This document shows positions 4,790-15,391 of a stretch of DNA of 64,000 nucleotides, in pieces; position 1 is the stretch's first letter, and each line of letters begins with the position of its first letter. The stretch is from Solirubrobacteraceae bacterium (lineage in GTDB: Bacteria > Actinomycetota > Thermoleophilia > Solirubrobacterales > Solirubrobacteraceae), in the NCBI GenBank assembly GCA_017882455.1, contig JADGPL010000002.1, positions 1 to 64,000 of the forward strand, written 5' to 3'. Position numbers and translations under genes: made by a program. The notes beneath the pieces are model-generated. The model was not told the origin of the DNA. It searched no databases and worked only from the letters and a program-made list of their open reading frames with translations.

Positions 4790-5761
4790 GTGCCCGATCC
4801 CGTCTGCCTGATCGTCAATCCAGCTGCCGGCGGCGGCAAGGCCGGGCGCATTGCGCCCGCAGTCGAGCAGGCATTGCTCGGGCACGGCCTGCGCGTGCGC
4901 CGTTGCGAAACGCTCCATCTCGAGCACGCGCGCGAGCTCGGATGCGAGGCCGCGAGGGCCGGAGAGACGGTCGTCGCGCTCAGCGGCGACGGCATGATCG
5001 GGGTCCTCGCCGACGCGCTGCAGGCGGTCCCCGGGGCGATCCTCGGCGTGCTTCCCGGCGGGCGCGGCAACGACCTCGCACGCGTGCTCGGGATCTCCGA
5101 TGACGCTGTGGCCGCCTGCGAGACCATCGCCCACGGCGTCCCGCGTCCGGTCGACCTCGGCGTGGCGGTCGACCCGAGCACGGGCGTGGTGGGCCGAGCA
5201 TTCGTGGGGATCGCCTCGGTCGGATTCGACAGTGAGGCCAATCGCATCGCAAACGAGGCCCCAGCCTGGCTCGGTGGAGGTGTCTACGCCTACGGCGCCC
5301 TGCGCGCGCTGCTCTCCTGGCGCCCAGCCCGTTTCGAGATCGAGCTGGACCCGCCCGGCGAACGCCACGCGTTCACCGGCTACACGATCGCCGCGGCCAA
5401 CTCCAGGGCCTACGGCGGCGGGATGCTGATGGCGCCCGACGCGCTGCTCGACGACGGGCTGCTCGAGGTGATCGTCGTCGAGGACGTCAGCCGCGCACGG
5501 TTCCTGGCCAACCTGCCCAAGGTCTTCCGCGGCACCCACGTGCAGCTGCCCTCCGTGCACGTGTTCCGAGCGGCCGAGGTCGCGATCGCCGCCAACCGTC
5601 CCTTCACAATGTACGCCGACGGCGACCCGCTCGGAGAGCTCCCGCTGCGCATCCGCGCCGTCGCCGGCGCCGTGAACATACTCGTCCCCGCCGACCGCCC
5701 CGACTCTCCGTTCGCCAAGGCGTACCGCCCCACGGCCTCCGCCGAGATCGGCGCGGACTGA
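4790..5761 (+). CDS. Diacylglycerol/sphingosine kinase family lipid kinase
   Basis: The product is a 323-residue protein of the DAGK catalytic family (YegS/DgkB-like), which phosphorylates a membrane diacylglycerol-type lipid. VNPAAGGGKAG is the N-terminal nucleotide-binding segment and LPGGRGNDLARVLG is the family GGRGND motif. The usual GGDGT is here SGDGM (residues 65-69), an unusual last position. The C-terminal half has the expected beta-sandwich pattern with YADGDPLGELPLRIR. Its TGA overlaps the ATG of murT by one base, so the two are translationally coupled. Lipid recycling next to lipid II amidation makes sense, but the substrate is not shown. Confidence 0.88.
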   Translation: MPDPVCLIVNPAAGGGKAGRIAPAVEQALLGHGLRVRRCETLHLEHARELGCEAARAGETVVALSGDGMIGVLADALQAVPGAILGVLPGGRGNDLARVLGISDDAVAACETIAHGVPRPVDLGVAVDPSTGVVGRAFVGIASVGFDSEANRIANEAPAWLGGGVYAYGALRALLSWRPARFEIELDPPGERHAFTGYTIAAANSRAYGGGMLMAPDALLDDGLLEVIVVEDVSRARFLANLPKVFRGTHVQLPSVHVFRAAEVAIAANRPFTMYADGDPLGELPLRIRAVAGAVNILVPADRPDSPFAKAYRPTASAEIGAD

Positions 5762-7170
5762 TGAGCGCCACACTGCAGGTCAAGCTCGCGCTCGCGCGGG
5801 CCGTGGGCGCGCTCTCGCGCCTGCGCGGCGGAGGCGCCACGAGCGTGCCCGGGAAGGTCCTGATGCGCCTGCAGCCGGACGCCATCGGCGCCCTCGGGGC
5901 GCGGCTGCGCATGGGCAGCGTGCTCGTATCGGCGACCAACGGCAAGACCACCACCGCCACCATGACCGCCGCGGTCCTCCAGCGGGCCGGCATCGAGCTC
6001 GTGCACAACCAGGCCGGGGCCAACATGGCCGGCGGGATCGCCACCACGCTGATCGGCGCCTCCCGCCCCCACGGGTCGATGGCCGGTGAGCTCGGCCTGT
6101 TCGAGGTCGACGAGCTGTGGCTCGCCTCGCTCGCGGCCCAACTGCGCCCTCGCGTCGTCCTGCTCGGCAACCTGTTTCGCGACCAGCTCGATCGCTACGG
6201 CGAGCTCGAGACGATCGCCGAGAGCTGGAAGCGGGTGATCGAGGATGGCGCCGCGCAGCTCGTGCTCAACGCCGACGATCCGCTCGTGGCCGATCTCGGT
6301 CGCGGGCGCTCCGACGTCGTGTACTTCGGTCTCGAGGACGACACGCTCGCCCTCCCCGGGATGGCCCATGCGGCCGACGCCAAGCACTGCCGTCGCTGCG
6401 GCGCGCCCTACGTCTTCGACGCCGTATATCTCGGCCACCTCGGCCACTATCACTGTCCGAGCTGCGGCCAGAGCAGGCCGGCTCCGACGGTCAGCGCCGG
6501 CGAGGTACGCCTAGAAGGGGTCCGCGCGGCGCGCTTCACGCTGAGCACGCCCGCCGGGCAGGCCGAGGTATCACTCGCCCTCCCGGGCCTCTACAACGTC
6601 TACAACGCGCTCGCAGCCGCCGCGCTCGCAACCGCCCTCGAGGTTCCGCTCGAGACGATCGCGGCGGGGCTCTCGAGCGCCAGAGCCGCATTCGGCCGCG
6701 CCGAGAGCGTCGGCCTCGCGATCCCCGCAACCGCAGGCGGCGCCGCGGCCGCCAGGCGCGAGTTGCGAATCATGCTCATCAAGAACCCCGCCGGCGCCAA
6801 CGAGGTCCTGCGCACGCTCGCCCTCGAGCCCGGCGAGCACGACCTGCTCGGGGTGCTCAACGACCAGATCGCGGACGGCCGCGACGTCTCCTGGATCTGG
6901 GACGCCGACTTCGAGCTGCTCGCCGACCGCGTCCGCCTCGCAACCTGCAGCGGCACTCGCGCCGCCGACCTCGCCGCCCGCTTGAAGTACGCCGGCCTCG
7001 ACCCCTCGCGGATCCACATCCAGAGCGATCTCGGCGCGGCGCTGCGCGAAGCCGCCGCGGAGCGCCCCGACGCCGATGCTCCGCTGTATGCGCTGCCAAC
7101 CTATACGGCAATGCTCTCGCTGAGGGAGCTGCTCGTCGCCCGCGGCGAGGCCAGCAGCGCATGGTCGTGA
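5761..7170 (+). CDS. murT: Lipid II isoglutaminyl synthase subunit MurT
   Basis: The product is a 469-residue Mur-ligase-fold subunit which, with GatD, amidates the D-glutamate of lipid II. VSATNGKTTT is the P-loop. HCRRCGAPYVF with HCPSCG forms the four-Cys zinc ribbon inserted in MurT proteins. The C-terminal part (MLIKNPAGANEVLRTL onward) is the DUF1727 region that contacts GatD. It is coupled to the lipid kinase upstream and overlaps the methyltransferase gene downstream by ten bases. Confidence 0.93.
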   Translation: MSATLQVKLALARAVGALSRLRGGGATSVPGKVLMRLQPDAIGALGARLRMGSVLVSATNGKTTTATMTAAVLQRAGIELVHNQAGANMAGGIATTLIGASRPHGSMAGELGLFEVDELWLASLAAQLRPRVVLLGNLFRDQLDRYGELETIAESWKRVIEDGAAQLVLNADDPLVADLGRGRSDVVYFGLEDDTLALPGMAHAADAKHCRRCGAPYVFDAVYLGHLGHYHCPSCGQSRPAPTVSAGEVRLEGVRAARFTLSTPAGQAEVSLALPGLYNVYNALAAAALATALEVPLETIAAGLSSARAAFGRAESVGLAIPATAGGAAAARRELRIMLIKNPAGANEVLRTLALEPGEHDLLGVLNDQIADGRDVSWIWDADFELLADRVRLATCSGTRAADLAARLKYAGLDPSRIHIQSDLGAALREAAAERPDADAPLYALPTYTAMLSLRELLVARGEASSAWS

Positions 7171-7949
7171 CCCCGAGCCGCGCCGGCGCGCACCACACGC
7201 TCCCGCCAGAGGTGGTCTGGCACGACCTCGAGTGCGGCGCCTACCGCGCAGACCTGCCGCTGTGGCGCGAGCTGGCCGAAGAGGCGCGTCTGGCGGACCC
7301 CGCGGCGAGGATCCTCGACATCGGCGCCGGAAGCGGGCGCGTGGCGCTCGAGCTCGCCCGGGCCGGGCACCACGTAACCGCGCTCGACAGCGCCGGCGCG
7401 CTGCTGGAAGCGCTGCGCCTGCGCGCGAGCGGGACACCGGTGGAGACCGTCGAAGCCGACGCTCGCAGCTTCGAGCTCCCCCATCGCGACTACGCCCTGT
7501 GCCTGGTGCCCATGCAGACGGTCCAGCTCCTCGGCGGCCCGGCCGGGCGCAGGGAGATGCTTCGCGCCGTGCGCGCCCACCTGCGTCCCGGAGGCCTGCT
7601 GGCCTGCGCAATCGTGACCGAGCTCGAGCCATTCGACGCCGAGCTCGAGGGTCACCGGCCATCCCCCGAGCGTGCCCACATTGAAGCGGCGCTCTACGAG
7701 AGCCGTGCGCTGAGTGTGCGGGTGGGCCGGCGCAGCATCCGCATCGAGCGCGAGCGCACCGCCACGCCGGACTCGGGCGGACAGGCTCCGGCGCCCACGC
7801 GTGAGCGCAATGTCATCGAGCTCGACCGCCTGAGCGCAGCCCGCCTGCATCGCGAGGGAGGCGAAGCGGGACTGCACGATGCCGGCACGCGCTCGGTGTC
7901 CTCGACCGAGGAGCACGTCGGCAGCACGGTGGTGATGCTCCGTGGCTGA
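7161..7949 (+). CDS. Class I SAM-dependent methyltransferase inserted between murT and gatD
   Basis: The product has about 262 residues from the ATG giving MVVTPSRAG, which overlaps the end of murT by ten bases. ILDIGAGSGRVALELARAGH is motif I, with the SAM-binding glycine loop. An acidic residue follows at the end of strand 2 (VTALDSAGALL), then VEADARSF and the post-motif LRPGGLLACAIV. The substrate is unknown. Its end overlaps gatD by eight bases, so all three are translated as a unit. A role in modifying a cell-wall precursor is an inference from position only. The ORF track merges it with an out-of-frame extension. Confidence 0.85.
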   Translation: MVVTPSRAGAHHTLPPEVVWHDLECGAYRADLPLWRELAEEARLADPAARILDIGAGSGRVALELARAGHHVTALDSAGALLEALRLRASGTPVETVEADARSFELPHRDYALCLVPMQTVQLLGGPAGRREMLRAVRAHLRPGGLLACAIVTELEPFDAELEGHRPSPERAHIEAALYESRALSVRVGRRSIRIERERTATPDSGGQAPAPTRERNVIELDRLSAARLHREGGEAGLHDAGTRSVSSTEEHVGSTVVMLRG

Positions 7950-8712
7950 CAGCGCTCCCGCGACCCCGGGCTCCACCCTGCGCGTCTGCGCGCTGTATCC
8001 CGACCTCATGAACATCTATGCCGACCGCGGCAACCTGATCGTGCTCGAGCGCCGCTGCGCCTGGCGCGGGATCGGCTTCCAGCTGTTCTCCAGCAGCCTG
8101 GGCGAGCCCCTCGACGGGGGCGAGCACGACCTCTTCTACATCGGCGGCGGCCAGGACCGCGACCAGCGCCTCTGCGCAGAGGACCTGATCGAGAACAAGC
8201 GCGAGGGACTGCGGGCCGCCGCCGCGCGCGGAGCCATCGTGCTCGGGGTCTGCGGCGGCTACCAGCTGCTCGGGCACTCCTACGCCCTCGGCGAGGAGGA
8301 GATCCCCGGCGTGGGGCTGCTCGACGTGCGCACCGTGCGCGAGGACGGCCCCCGTCTGATCGGCAACGTCGCCATCGAGGCCTCGCTCGACGAGATGGAC
8401 GCCAACGCCGAGGAGCGGGTGCTCGCGGGCTTCGAGAACCACGGCGGACGCACCTACCTAGCCGAGGGCCAGGCCCCGCTCGGGCGGGTCCTCAAGGGCT
8501 ATGGCAACGACGGCCGCAGCGGCGTCGAGGGCGCCCGCACCGCCAACACGATCGGCACCTACCTCCACGGACCGCTGTTGCCCAAGAACGTGTGGTTCGC
8601 CGACTGGCTGATCTCGCGGGCGCTGGGGCTGGGCCCCGGGGAGCTCGCCCCGCTGGAGGACGGGATCGAGCGCCAGACCCACCGGAGCGCGCGCCAGGCC
8701 GCGGGCGTCTGA
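7942..8712 (+). CDS. gatD: Lipid II isoglutaminyl synthase glutaminase subunit GatD
   Basis: The product is a 256-residue class I (triad) glutamine amidotransferase that supplies ammonia to MurT. RVCALYPDLMNIYADRGN is the typical GatD/CobQ-like start. GVCGGYQLLGHSY carries the nucleophilic Cys. FYIGGGQDRDQ is the GatD loop, and TYLHGPLLPKN supplies the catalytic His. It starts at a GTG overlapping the methyltransferase stop. The cluster order lipid kinase, murT, methyltransferase, gatD is fully overlapping and surely an operon. Confidence 0.93.
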   Translation: MADSAPATPGSTLRVCALYPDLMNIYADRGNLIVLERRCAWRGIGFQLFSSSLGEPLDGGEHDLFYIGGGQDRDQRLCAEDLIENKREGLRAAAARGAIVLGVCGGYQLLGHSYALGEEEIPGVGLLDVRTVREDGPRLIGNVAIEASLDEMDANAEERVLAGFENHGGRTYLAEGQAPLGRVLKGYGNDGRSGVEGARTANTIGTYLHGPLLPKNVWFADWLISRALGLGPGELAPLEDGIERQTHRSARQAAGV

Positions 8713-11628: not shown

Positions 11629-12795
11629 TCAACCCGCGAGCGTGCCCAGCCGTGTCATGGCCTCCAGCAGGCGATCGTCTGGAGTCGTCAGCGAGATCCG
11701 AAACCAGCCCTCGCCCGCGGGACCGTAGACGGCGCCCGGGGTGAGCACCACGCCCGTGCGCTCGATCACGTGCTCGCAGTACTCCTCCGAGCTGCCGAAG
11801 CCCTCAGGCACGGGCGCCCACACGTAGATCGTGCTCCGCGGCGGCGTCACGTCCACGCCGATCGAGCGCAGCCCCTCGCACACCAGATCGCGCCGGCGCA
11901 GGTACAGCTCGTTCATCGAGGCCACCTCCGCGTCCGCCTCCGGCGAGAGCGCCGCGATCCCAGCCAGCTGCACCGCCTCGAACAGCCCCGAGTCGATGTT
12001 TGTCTTCAACCGCCAGTACGTCTGCACCGCCTCCGCGTTTCCCACCACCACCGCGCAGCGCCAGCCCGTCATGTTGTAGCCCTTCGACAGCGAGAACACC
12101 TCGATCCCCACCTCCTTGGCGCCCGGCGTCGCCAGGAACGAAGGCGCCCGGTAGCCGTCGAAGGTGATCTCCGAATAGGCGTTGTCGTGCACCACCAGGA
12201 TCTCGTGCTCGCGCGCGAACTCCACCACGCGCTCGAAGAAGCCCTCCGGCACCACCGCTCCCGTCGGGTTGTTGGGGTAGTTGAGGTACATCAGCTTCGT
12301 GCGGCCGAGGACCTCCTCGTCGATCGCCTCCAGGTCCGGGGTGAAGCCGCGCTCGGGCTCAAGCGCCATCAGCACCGGCTCCCCGCCCGCCAGCCACGGC
12401 CCGCCCGTGTACACCGGGTAGCCCGGGTCCGCCGCCAGCGCGTAGTCCCCCGGGTCCAGGAAGGCCAGGTTGAGGTTGAAGATCGCCTCCTTGGCCCCGA
12501 TCGCCGGGATGACCTCCCGCTCCTTGTCCAGGTCCACGTCGAAGCGGCGCTCGTAGAAGTCGCTGACCGCTTCCCGGAAGTCCTCGCGGCCGCGGTTCGA
12601 GGGGTAGCGGTGGGTCTCCGGCTCGCTCACCGCCTCCTGCATCGCCTCCACCACCAGCGCCGGCGTCGGGCGGTCCGGGTCGCCGATCCCGAGGCTGATC
12701 ACGTCCACTCCCGCTGCCCGCTTCTCCTCGATCGTCCGCTCCAGGCGGGCGAACGCGTACGGCGGGATGCGCTCCAGGCGCTTACTCGGTCTCAT
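11629..12795 (-). CDS. dapL: LL-diaminopimelate aminotransferase-like enzyme (class I/II aminotransferase)
   Basis: The product is a 388-residue PLP enzyme. SLSKGYNMTGWR contains the Schiff-base Lys and the following Arg, and YLNYPNNPTGAV and HDNAYSEITFDGY are the fold-type I cofactor-binding segments. The similarity is to LL-DAP aminotransferases, which convert tetrahydrodipicolinate directly to LL-diaminopimelate. Its start overlaps the 3' end of dapF by 14 bases, and dapA and dapB are in the same window, which supports the DAP role. A general aspartate/alanine aminotransferase cannot be excluded. Confidence 0.85.
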   Translation of the reverse strand: MRPSKRLERIPPYAFARLERTIEEKRAAGVDVISLGIGDPDRPTPALVVEAMQEAVSEPETHRYPSNRGREDFREAVSDFYERRFDVDLDKEREVIPAIGAKEAIFNLNLAFLDPGDYALAADPGYPVYTGGPWLAGGEPVLMALEPERGFTPDLEAIDEEVLGRTKLMYLNYPNNPTGAVVPEGFFERVVEFAREHEILVVHDNAYSEITFDGYRAPSFLATPGAKEVGIEVFSLSKGYNMTGWRCAVVVGNAEAVQTYWRLKTNIDSGLFEAVQLAGIAALSPEADAEVASMNELYLRRRDLVCEGLRSIGVDVTPPRSTIYVWAPVPEGFGSSEEYCEHVIERTGVVLTPGAVYGPAGEGWFRISLTTPDDRLLEAMTRLGTLAG

Positions 12796-13684
12796 GCAGC
12801 TCCTTTTCGAAGTCCTCGCTGATGTGGCCCTCGAACACGGGCCGCGCCCAGCCTGTCAGGTTCACGCGCAGATCCTCCCCCACCTCCACCTCCAGCTCAC
12901 CTCCGTCCAGCTCCACCTTCACGTGCGCCCCCGCAACCCGGTGCAGGCCGCGCGTCACCACGTAGGCCACCGCCGCCCCCGTCGCGCCCGTGCCCGAGGA
13001 GAGCGTCTCCCCCACCCCGCGCTCGAAGATGCGCGCGCGGATGCTCGCCGGCGAGTGCGCCGAAGCCTCCTCGCCCGCCTCCAGCTCCGTGTACCAGGAG
13101 ACGTTCGTGCGGTTGGGGAACTGCCCGTCGCCTTCGATATGCGGACCGATCGCCGGCAGGTCCAGTTCCATCAGCTCTCTCAGCGAGCCCACCTCGATCG
13201 CGCACTGAGGATTGCCGATCGACACATGGCGAAACGGCCACAGGTGATGCTCGGTCGCAACCGAGCCCAGGCCGTCCTTGAGGCCATCCGGGAAGTCGCT
13301 CGATGTGAGGCTCGCGCGGCCCATGTCCACCCTGCACGTATCCGGCCCCGTGATCGTGGGCCTGATCTCGCCGGCGGCCGTGTTGATCGCGAAGCTGTCC
13401 TGCTCCGTCCAGCCGCGGCGGCGCAGGTACAGGATCGCCTCGCGCGCACCGTTGCCCGACAGCTCCGCCTCCGAGCCATCCGGGTTGAAGATGCGCAGGT
13501 CCGCCACGTGCGCCGGGTCGGCCGGCTGGGAGAGCAGCAGCACACCGTCCGCGAACAGCCCGAAGTGGCCCTCGCACAGCCTGCGAATGCGCGCCCGGGT
13601 CAACTCGAACGGGAGCTCGTCGCGCTCCACGATCAGGTAGTCGTTGCCCAGCGCCTGCCACTTCTCGAATCTCAGCGTTCCCAT
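12782..13684 (-). CDS. dapF: Diaminopimelate epimerase family protein lacking both catalytic Cys
   Basis: The product has 300 residues with the DapF two-domain layout: KWQALGNDYLIVE at the start, NPDGSEAELSGNGAR in the first half and ERGVGETLSSGTGATG in the second. In characterised DapF the residues before GNG and GTG are the two catalytic Cys (CGNG and CGTG). Here both are Ser, and the codons read TCG in each case. The three remaining Cys are elsewhere. It overlaps miaA (ATGA) and dapL. It may be an altered epimerase or another isomerase of the fold. The ORF track merges it with an upstream extension; I start at MGTLRFEKW. Confidence 0.88.
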   Translation of the reverse strand: MGTLRFEKWQALGNDYLIVERDELPFELTRARIRRLCEGHFGLFADGVLLLSQPADPAHVADLRIFNPDGSEAELSGNGAREAILYLRRRGWTEQDSFAINTAAGEIRPTITGPDTCRVDMGRASLTSSDFPDGLKDGLGSVATEHHLWPFRHVSIGNPQCAIEVGSLRELMELDLPAIGPHIEGDGQFPNRTNVSWYTELEAGEEASAHSPASIRARIFERGVGETLSSGTGATGAAVAYVVTRGLHRVAGAHVKVELDGGELEVEVGEDLRVNLTGWARPVFEGHISEDFEKELHETE

Positions 13685-14580
13685 CAGGCGCCGGAGTCTA
13701 GGATCTCGCGCGCCACGAGCGCCGGGTCGCGTCCCGTCACCTCGATGACCCGCACGCCCGCGAGCTTCCGCATCCACGTCAGCTGGCGCTTGGCATAGTT
13801 GCGCGTGCGCTGCTTCATCCGCTCGCGCTCGTCCGCCAAGAGCTCCTCGAACCCGAGCGCCTTGCGCGCCGTCAACGAGGCGCCCGCCGCATGCGCACGG
13901 CGAACCTCCTCGACGGCGCCCGCCGCGATCATCGCCTCCACGCGCGCGTCGATCGCCGCGTAGAGCGCCTCCCGCTCCATCGTCAGGCCGGCCAGCAGCG
14001 TCGGATGACGCAGCTCCCCACTCCACAGCTGCGAGGGGCCCTCCGGCGCCTCCAGCTCGCCCAGGTCCAGGAGCTCGAGCGCACGCACGACCCGCCGGCG
14101 GTCGTTCGGGTCGATCTCCGCCGCGGCCCACCCCGCCCGCTCGGCCAGGAGGGCGTGCAGCGCCGGCGCCCCCTCACGTTCCAGCGCCCCCAGCCAGCGC
14201 GCCCGCACGCCCTCCGGTGGCGGCGGTCGCAGGTCGAGCTCGCACAGCGCCGCACGCAGATACAGCCCCGTTCCACCCACCACGATCGGCCGCCGGCCCT
14301 GCGCCAGCAGCGCATCGATCTCCGCGTGGGCCAGCTGCGAGTACTCGCCCACGCTGAACCTGGCGTCCACCGGCACGAACGACACCAGGCGATGCTCCAG
14401 CAGCGATCGCTCCGCCGGCGAGGCCACGCCCGTCAGCGTCTCCAGGCCCTCGTACACCTGCAGCGCGTCCGCCGACACCGCAACCGGGTCCTCCCCCCGC
14501 TCGCGCAGTTGCCCGGCGAGGGCCACCGCCACGGCGGTCTTGCCAACGCCCGTCGGGCCGAACAGCGCGATGATCCGCAT
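13684..14580 (-). CDS. miaA: tRNA dimethylallyltransferase MiaA
   Basis: The product is a 298-residue enzyme that adds the dimethylallyl group to A37 of tRNAs reading UNN codons. The P-loop is ALFGPTGVGKTAVA. SADALQVYEGLETLTG supplies the catalytic Asp, and VVGGTGLYLRA and the C-terminal RNYAKRQLTWMRKL contact tRNA. The start is the ATG giving MRIIALFGPTG; the longer ORF upstream is antisense to the SDR gene. Its stop overlaps the dapF start by one base. MiaB, the next enzyme on the same base, is encoded in this window. Confidence 0.95.
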   Translation of the reverse strand: MRIIALFGPTGVGKTAVAVALAGQLRERGEDPVAVSADALQVYEGLETLTGVASPAERSLLEHRLVSFVPVDARFSVGEYSQLAHAEIDALLAQGRRPIVVGGTGLYLRAALCELDLRPPPPEGVRARWLGALEREGAPALHALLAERAGWAAAEIDPNDRRRVVRALELLDLGELEAPEGPSQLWSGELRHPTLLAGLTMEREALYAAIDARVEAMIAAGAVEEVRRAHAAGASLTARKALGFEELLADERERMKQRTRNYAKRQLTWMRKLAGVRVIEVTGRDPALVAREILDSGA

Positions 14581-14599
14581 GCGGGTAGGGTCACAGCTC

Positions 14600-15391
14600 G
14601 TGCAGATCTCCGGCTCCACCGTGCTGCTCACGGGCGCCACCGGCGGCATCGGGCACGCCATCGCCCGAGCTCTGCGGGCACGCGGCGCCACGCTGATCCT
14701 CACCGGCCGGCGCAGCGAGGTGCTCGAGCCGCTCGCCGCCGAGCTCGGCGCGCGCGCCCTCTCCGTGGACCTCGCCAGCGCCGAGGAGCTCGACCGTCTC
14801 GTCGCCGAGGCCGGCACAGTGGACATCCTCGTGGCCAACGCCGCCCTGCCCGCCACCGGCACGCTCGACACGTTCTCCATGGAGGAGATCGATCGCGCCA
14901 TCGCCGTCAACCTGCGCGCCCCCATCGCCCTCGCCCACGCTCTCTCGCCTTCCATGATCGCGCGCCGCAGCGGCCACCTCTGCTTCATGTCCTCGCTCAA
15001 CGGCAAGGCCGCAACGCCACAGACCTCCATCTACAACGCAACCAAGTTCGGCCTCAGGGGTTTCGCCACAGCCCTGCGCGCCGACATGCGCCCCCATGGC
15101 GTCGAGGTCTCCGCGATCTTCCCAGGCTTCGTCAGCGACGCCGGCATGTTCGCCGACGCCGGCGTCAAGCTGCCTCCAGGCGTCGGCACGCGCTCGCCCG
15201 AGGACGTCGCCCGCGCGACCATCAGCGCGATCGAGCACAACCGTGGCGAGGTCGACGTGGCGCCGCTGGCCCTGCGCCTCGGCTCAGCCTTCGCTGGGCT
15301 CGCCCCCGAGCTGTCCGCCACCGTCACCCGCAAGCTCGGCGGGGACAAGATCGCCGGCGAGCTGGCCATCGCCAACAACAGCAAGCGCTGA
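14600..15391 (+). CDS. Short-chain dehydrogenase/reductase
   Basis: The product is a 263-residue classical SDR from the GTG giving VQISGSTVLLTG. TGATGGIG is the cofactor-binding glycine motif, followed by TGRRSEVLE, which suggests NADP(H) preference. NAALPATG is the NNAG-like segment. The catalytic Ser is in FMSSLNG and Tyr/Lys in SIYNATKFG. The substrate is unknown. It is divergent from miaA with almost no space between the starts. The upstream extension in the ORF track lies inside miaA on the other strand. Confidence 0.9.
   Translation: MQISGSTVLLTGATGGIGHAIARALRARGATLILTGRRSEVLEPLAAELGARALSVDLASAEELDRLVAEAGTVDILVANAALPATGTLDTFSMEEIDRAIAVNLRAPIALAHALSPSMIARRSGHLCFMSSLNGKAATPQTSIYNATKFGLRGFATALRADMRPHGVEVSAIFPGFVSDAGMFADAGVKLPPGVGTRSPEDVARATISAIEHNRGEVDVAPLALRLGSAFAGLAPELSATVTRKLGGDKIAGELAIANNSKR

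Follow-up and report, generated by a model that had tools for sequence, protein, structure and literature searches.

A probable thiol-free diaminopimelate epimerase in Solirubrobacterales, with serine in place of both catalytic cysteines

A dapF gene of a Solirubrobacteraceae bacterium encodes a diaminopimelate (DAP) epimerase homologue with serine at both catalytic cysteine positions, Ser76 and Ser230, and we infer from sequence and modeled structure that it is probably the cell's working, thiol-free DAP epimerase. The gene lies in a 64,000-nucleotide stretch, hereafter the window (GenBank assembly GCA_017882455.1, contig JADGPL010000002.1, positions 1 to 64,000 of the forward strand). DapF is a textbook cofactor-independent racemase: the thiolate of one cysteine abstracts a proton of very low acidity, and a partner thiol gives one back. 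An earlier sequence-only reading of this DNA had listed catalysis by serine among its options. We favor that option on the strength of a sole dapF in its usual gene slot, retained DAP-binding residues, the presence of lysA and a DAP-type MurE, and the lack of a detectable bypass; the activity itself we infer. A natural Ser/Ser DapF is nowhere described in the open-licence literature that we found.

The Ser/Ser pair in the window and in Thermoleophilia

The dapF reading frame runs on the minus strand from an ATG at 13684 to a stop at 12782 with no internal stop, at the coordinates given by the sequence-only reading (12782-13684). That reading had also called both catalytic cysteines serine, encoded by TCG at each site, which translation and a codon check confirm. 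The first site reads E-L-S76-G-N-G (SGNG, residues 76-79) and the second E-T-L-S229-S230-G-T-G (SSGTG, residues 229-233); in the latter it is Ser230, the second serine, and not Ser229 that stands where the cysteine would be. The protein passes the DapF model TIGR00652 (172.1 bits; curated cut-off 114.65) and the DAP_epimerase model PF01678 (125.9 bits; cut-off 34.7). Set against the PROSITE first-cysteine pattern, N-x-[DN]-[GS]-[SENGFT]-x(4)-C-[GI]-N-[GA]-x-R (PMC8225329), the window sequence NPDGSEAELSGNGAR matches at every position except C, which is S76. The biochemical DAP epimerase family is recognized by two cysteines, and the window protein has serine at both sites (S76, S230).

To place this pair among relatives, we read DapF from 31 close genomes, from some of 299 genomes sampled across the class, and from 40 further genomes of the order. 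All 106 distinct sequences from Solirubrobacterales, the window's own order, are Ser/Ser, and Ala, Gly or Thr was never seen at either site. Site 1 is encoded by TCG (40), TCC (31), TCA (3) and TCT (1), and site 2 by TCG (37), TCC (19), AGC (8), TCA (6), TCT (3) and AGT (2), so that both serine codon blocks, TCN and AGY, are used at site 2. Because the codons vary, four at the first site and six at the second, it is the amino acid itself that stays constant. The isolate Patulibacter americanus DSM 16676 and several single-contig genomes carry the same pair.

Across the class, the picture is divided. By our own family handles, f1-f4, f7 and f11 are Ser/Ser (29/29 in f7 among sequences readable at both sites, with one more cut short, and 4/4 in f11), whereas f5, f6, f8, f9 and f10 are Cys/Cys (25 sequences). 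No mixed Ser/Cys or Cys/Ser pair occurs among the Thermoleophilia DapF sequences read. The sequence-only reading had proposed an alignment across Thermoleophilia as a check and had counted relatives with cysteine at both sites as evidence against its claim; Ser/Ser is indeed fixed in the order but not class-wide, and Cys/Cys relatives lie only outside the order, in the five families just named. As a separate observation, the GNPH motif of other DapF proteins is GNPQ at position 160 (His160 to Gln) in 66/66 own-order sequences of our first set, and in this order only.

The cysteines of the Solirubrobacterales dapF were most likely altered in place, judging from gene order and phylogeny. The order miaA-dapF-dapL is common to Cys/Cys and most Ser/Ser Thermoleophilia read; a small number of own-order genomes have no close dapL beside dapF. 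Trees that omit both catalytic columns unite the own-order Ser/Ser proteins in a single supported group, nested in the Thermoleophilia DapF clade, to which the Cys/Cys members also belong. It is this shared gene slot, together with the position within the Thermoleophilia clade, that points to exchange in place, and the same two facts leave horizontal replacement by a foreign paralogue with no support. A single origin of all Ser/Ser DapF proteins was also considered, and one clade is rejected (approximately unbiased (AU) test, p = 2.9e-5); one origin for the three Thermoleophilia Ser/Ser groups alone is not rejected (AU p = 0.149).

Substrate site, fold and the supply of meso-DAP

Eight residues of Corynebacterium glutamicum DapF (CgDapF), N15, N74, N85, N159, N194, E212, R213 and T223, bind DAP at its two ends and leave the enzyme nearly inactive when mutated to alanine (PMC5296763). 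They correspond to N14, N67, N78, N158, N194, E221, R222 and T232 of the window protein, and the 28 Ser/Ser representatives retain all eight without exception, with either T or S at position 232. An AlphaFold2 model of the window protein (mean pLDDT 95.7) has Ser76 and Ser230 each at the N-terminal end of one of the two central helices, like known DapF. Its best structural match is DapF 9mro (VIA Z 35.6, rmsd 2.0 over 269 residues), and CgDapF 5m47 follows closely (VIA Z 34.5, rmsd 2.1 over 266 residues). The model has the two-domain DapF fold; the sequence-only reading had called the rest of the fold intact. Canonical enzymes (Anabaena 9mro, C. glutamicum 5m47, Haemophilus influenzae 1gqz) share this fold at Z 32.6-35.6 and 30-36% identity, and have the profile, the DAP-binding residues and the place in a lysine/DAP operon in common with the window protein, which differs in having serine for both cysteines.

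No other cysteine is retained through all Ser/Ser proteins in the alignment. Cys37 and Cys161 were considered as substitutes; both also occur in Cys/Cys enzymes, and neither is retained through f7. At positions 63, 75, 82 and 83 the two kinds of protein, Ser/Ser and Cys/Cys, are strongly different in a comparison that ignores relatedness, and for that reason we draw no mechanism from a second-shell switch.

We then asked whether another route to meso-DAP is present. In the window's genome, assembled in 51 contigs and 95% complete, a Pfam search found no second DAP_epimerase gene, only the one PF01678 gene; near relatives likewise have one DapF match per genome, except one in which the match is split by a frame break. 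The bypass enzyme meso-DAP dehydrogenase (Ddh, TIGR01921) does not exceed its cut-off in the window's genome. It does so in 2/61 own-order genomes of fair completeness and in 0/41 other genomes, mostly Ser/Ser or Ser/Cys carriers. Two loci of the own-order genus g9, L207 (G269) and L208 (G319), come from genomes with a full meso-DAP dehydrogenase in addition to DapF. On the demand side, lysA was found in 60/61 genomes of the order, and the window's genome has a MurE-like ligase with a DNPR motif, which we take to be the motif of DAP-adding MurE.

Taken together, these findings suggest a simple scheme. LL-DAP from the adjoining DapL would be bound by the Ser/Ser DapF, one end would be inverted to give meso-DAP, and the product would feed MurE and LysA. 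The serine hydroxyls would take the roles of thiolate and thiol, with serine itself as the putative proton carrier, and a closed, desolvated pocket together with second-shell changes may make the rate sufficient for slow-growing cells. As one idea for why the cysteines were lost, we suggest escape from oxidation, by analogy with C. glutamicum DapF, which is described as redox-sensitive in PMC5296763.

Weighing a serine pair against other explanations

The chemistry of the pair and the behavior of engineered enzymes weigh against a working serine epimerase. A serine hydroxyl is a far weaker acid than a thiol. Cys-to-Ser single mutants of the diaminobutyrate (Dab) racemase PddB have <0.1% activity left (PMC8225329), Mycobacterium tuberculosis DapF mutants likewise fall to <0.1% according to the account in the same paper, and the activity of HisR C67S and C209S is greatly reduced (PMC11602996). 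In the related proline racemase superfamily, moreover, a Ser/Thr dyad makes a dehydratase, not an epimerase (PMC4113996).

Comparison with characterized proteins gives precedents for part of the change. The 4-hydroxyproline epimerase of the orange cluster, a two-domain racemase of that related superfamily, has a natural serine for one cysteine and is an active epimerase (PMC4113996), so serine can act in such a pocket; it differs from the window DapF in family, in substrate and in having one cysteine replaced only. The Asp/Glu racemases EcL-DER and MMP0739 are cofactor-independent and have a natural threonine, also a hydroxyl residue, for one cysteine (PMC8142540); they too belong to another family with another substrate, and EcL-DER is one-way, as MMP0739 is predicted to be. 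H. influenzae DapF C73S (2q9h; Z 32.5) and C217S (2q9j; Z 32.0) carry serine at one of the same positions, but these are engineered single mutants, made for a catalysis study or as a crystallization aid, whereas the window protein is a natural double change. As for rate, only modest activity may be required: a turnover number of ~0.15 is listed for M. tuberculosis DapF (PMC8142540), and by our rough estimate a slow-growing cell with ~1000 DapF copies needs of the order of 0.1 per second.

An unlikely alternative is that epimerase activity has been lost while DAP is still bound, the protein serving as a regulator, scaffold or DapL partner and meso-DAP coming from an unrelated epimerase or racemase. 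The near-complete inactivity of the engineered Cys-to-Ser enzymes would fit such a loss. The sequence-only reading had allowed for an epimerase elsewhere; the family search speaks against one, with its single PF01678 gene, although homology searches would miss an unrelated enzyme. Against lost activity stand the serine at both sites in every own-order sequence, never relaxed to Ala, Gly or Thr, and the full set of binding residues. Nitrospira, one Chloroflexota metagenome-assembled genome (MAG) and one Acidobacteriota MAG, too, have a Ser/Ser protein as the only DapF found, and a replacement epimerase would need to have been gained separately in each lineage.

Less probable still is an enzyme that is active but altered, converting LL-DAP to meso-DAP in a strongly one-way manner, carrying out an elimination on a modified substrate, or inverting another diamino acid. 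Several precedents point in this direction: the one-way Cys/Thr racemase EcL-DER and the conversion of a hydroxyproline epimerase into a dehydratase by a Cys-to-Thr change (PMC8142540), and the Ser/Thr dehydratase (PMC4113996), which makes an altered reaction of Ser/Ser DapF possible. The O-ureidoserine racemase 7vdy is, in addition, among the structures nearest to the window model. However, all distal-carboxylate residues for DAP are retained, unlike in PddB, which has lost them (PMC8225329), and a DapL gene adjoins dapF. One-way behavior is also unexpected from a pKa difference alone, since the Ser/Ser pair is symmetric.

Other Actinomycetota have walls built on LL-DAP, and the sequence-only reading had raised such a wall here, for which hardly any epimerase, or none, would be needed. 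We give this only a slim chance: published data on relatives of the window's organism name meso-DAP as a diagnostic trait of all Solirubrobacterales (PMC3035278) and place it in the Solirubrobacter wall (PMC10722151), and LysA, which decarboxylates meso-DAP and is encoded in nearly all genomes of the order, would still need it. An artefact of annotation, assembly or sequencing, the last of which the sequence-only reading had named as grounds for dropping its claim, is refuted by the agreement of all 106 own-order sequences, their varied serine codons with the TCN/AGY difference at site 2, the single-contig genomes and P. americanus DSM 16676.

Returning to the thiol-free epimerase, we lean toward a broader form of it, resting on comparative sequence data: a Ser/Ser pair in the DapF fold may carry out two-base proton transfer at a sufficient physiological rate with no need for a thiol, may have arisen more than once, and may be the sole DapF of Solirubrobacterales, Nitrospira and other lineages. 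Whole clades with serine at both sites of a single essential-pathway gene make the need for a thiol pair directly testable. Should the serine enzyme prove active, models of proton removal must change, and annotation rules that demand both cysteines are wrong for many bacteria; cysteine-alkylating inhibitors such as aziridino-DAP would miss Ser/Ser organisms, whose DapF should withstand the thiol-directed inhibitors and the oxidation that affect Cys/Cys DapF. Should it prove inactive, these organisms have an undescribed route to meso-DAP.

Serine-substituted DapF in other lineages, and the window locus

Outside Thermoleophilia, Nitrospira and its close kin have Ser/Ser as the sole DapF found in 32/32 loci read. 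The loci of this group (L190, L313-L342, L353, L354) show the motifs AEKSGNG ... ASGSS, with one DapF per genome; the group includes cultured strains. Lacrimispora xylanisolvens has two DapF homologues 20 kb apart (L149, L275), one Cys/Cys and one Ser/Ser, and the Ser/Ser second copy may act on a different substrate. Single substitutions also occur. Serine at site 1 with cysteine at site 2 is found in 22 Actinomycetota sequences, mostly the sole TIGR00652 match of their genome (L252-L274 in part; families f27, f33, f42, f48, f55, f59, f62 and f66, and further f71, f72, f76, f78, f80, f83 and f84), and in two Nitrospirota cases (L344, L351). The reverse pair, cysteine at site 1 and serine at site 2, is found in a few Actinomycetota, namely a Rubrobacter MAG (L176/L280), L300 and L306.

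In the window, dapF lies between miaA and an LL-DAP aminotransferase gene, as the sequence-only reading had it, and the profile matches to TIGR00174 and NF006756 agree (Table 1). The miaA stop and the dapF start have one base in common (TGATG), and the dapL start overlaps the dapF end by 14 bases; given these two overlaps, the three genes look translationally coupled. With the narrower TIGR03540 model the window dapL scores 526.2 bits, short of the 593.25-bit cut-off. Within the listed miaA reading frame the TIGR00174 match starts only at residue 153, and the real start is probably further in.

Table 1. Features of the dapF locus, in window coordinates
Feature	Position	Strand	Basis
dapF orthologue, 300 aa, Ser76/Ser230 for both catalytic Cys	12782..13684	-	TIGR00652, PF01678, AlphaFold2 model
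Ser76 codon TCG, first catalytic position, N-terminus of helix 77-89	13457..13459	-	sequence, codon check, model
Ser230 codon TCG, second catalytic position, N-terminus of helix 231-244	12995..12997	-	sequence, codon check, model
dapL, LL-diaminopimelate aminotransferase	11629..12795	-	NF006756 548.8 bits, cut-off 507
miaA, open reading frame as listed	13684..15030	-	TIGR00174 158.7 bits, cut-off 148.65

Elsewhere in the window, a Mur-ligase-like gene with a Mur_ligase_M match (5761-7170, plus strand) is followed by a glutamine-amidotransferase-like gene (7942-8712, plus strand), a pair that we take to resemble MurT/GatD, which amidates lipid II.
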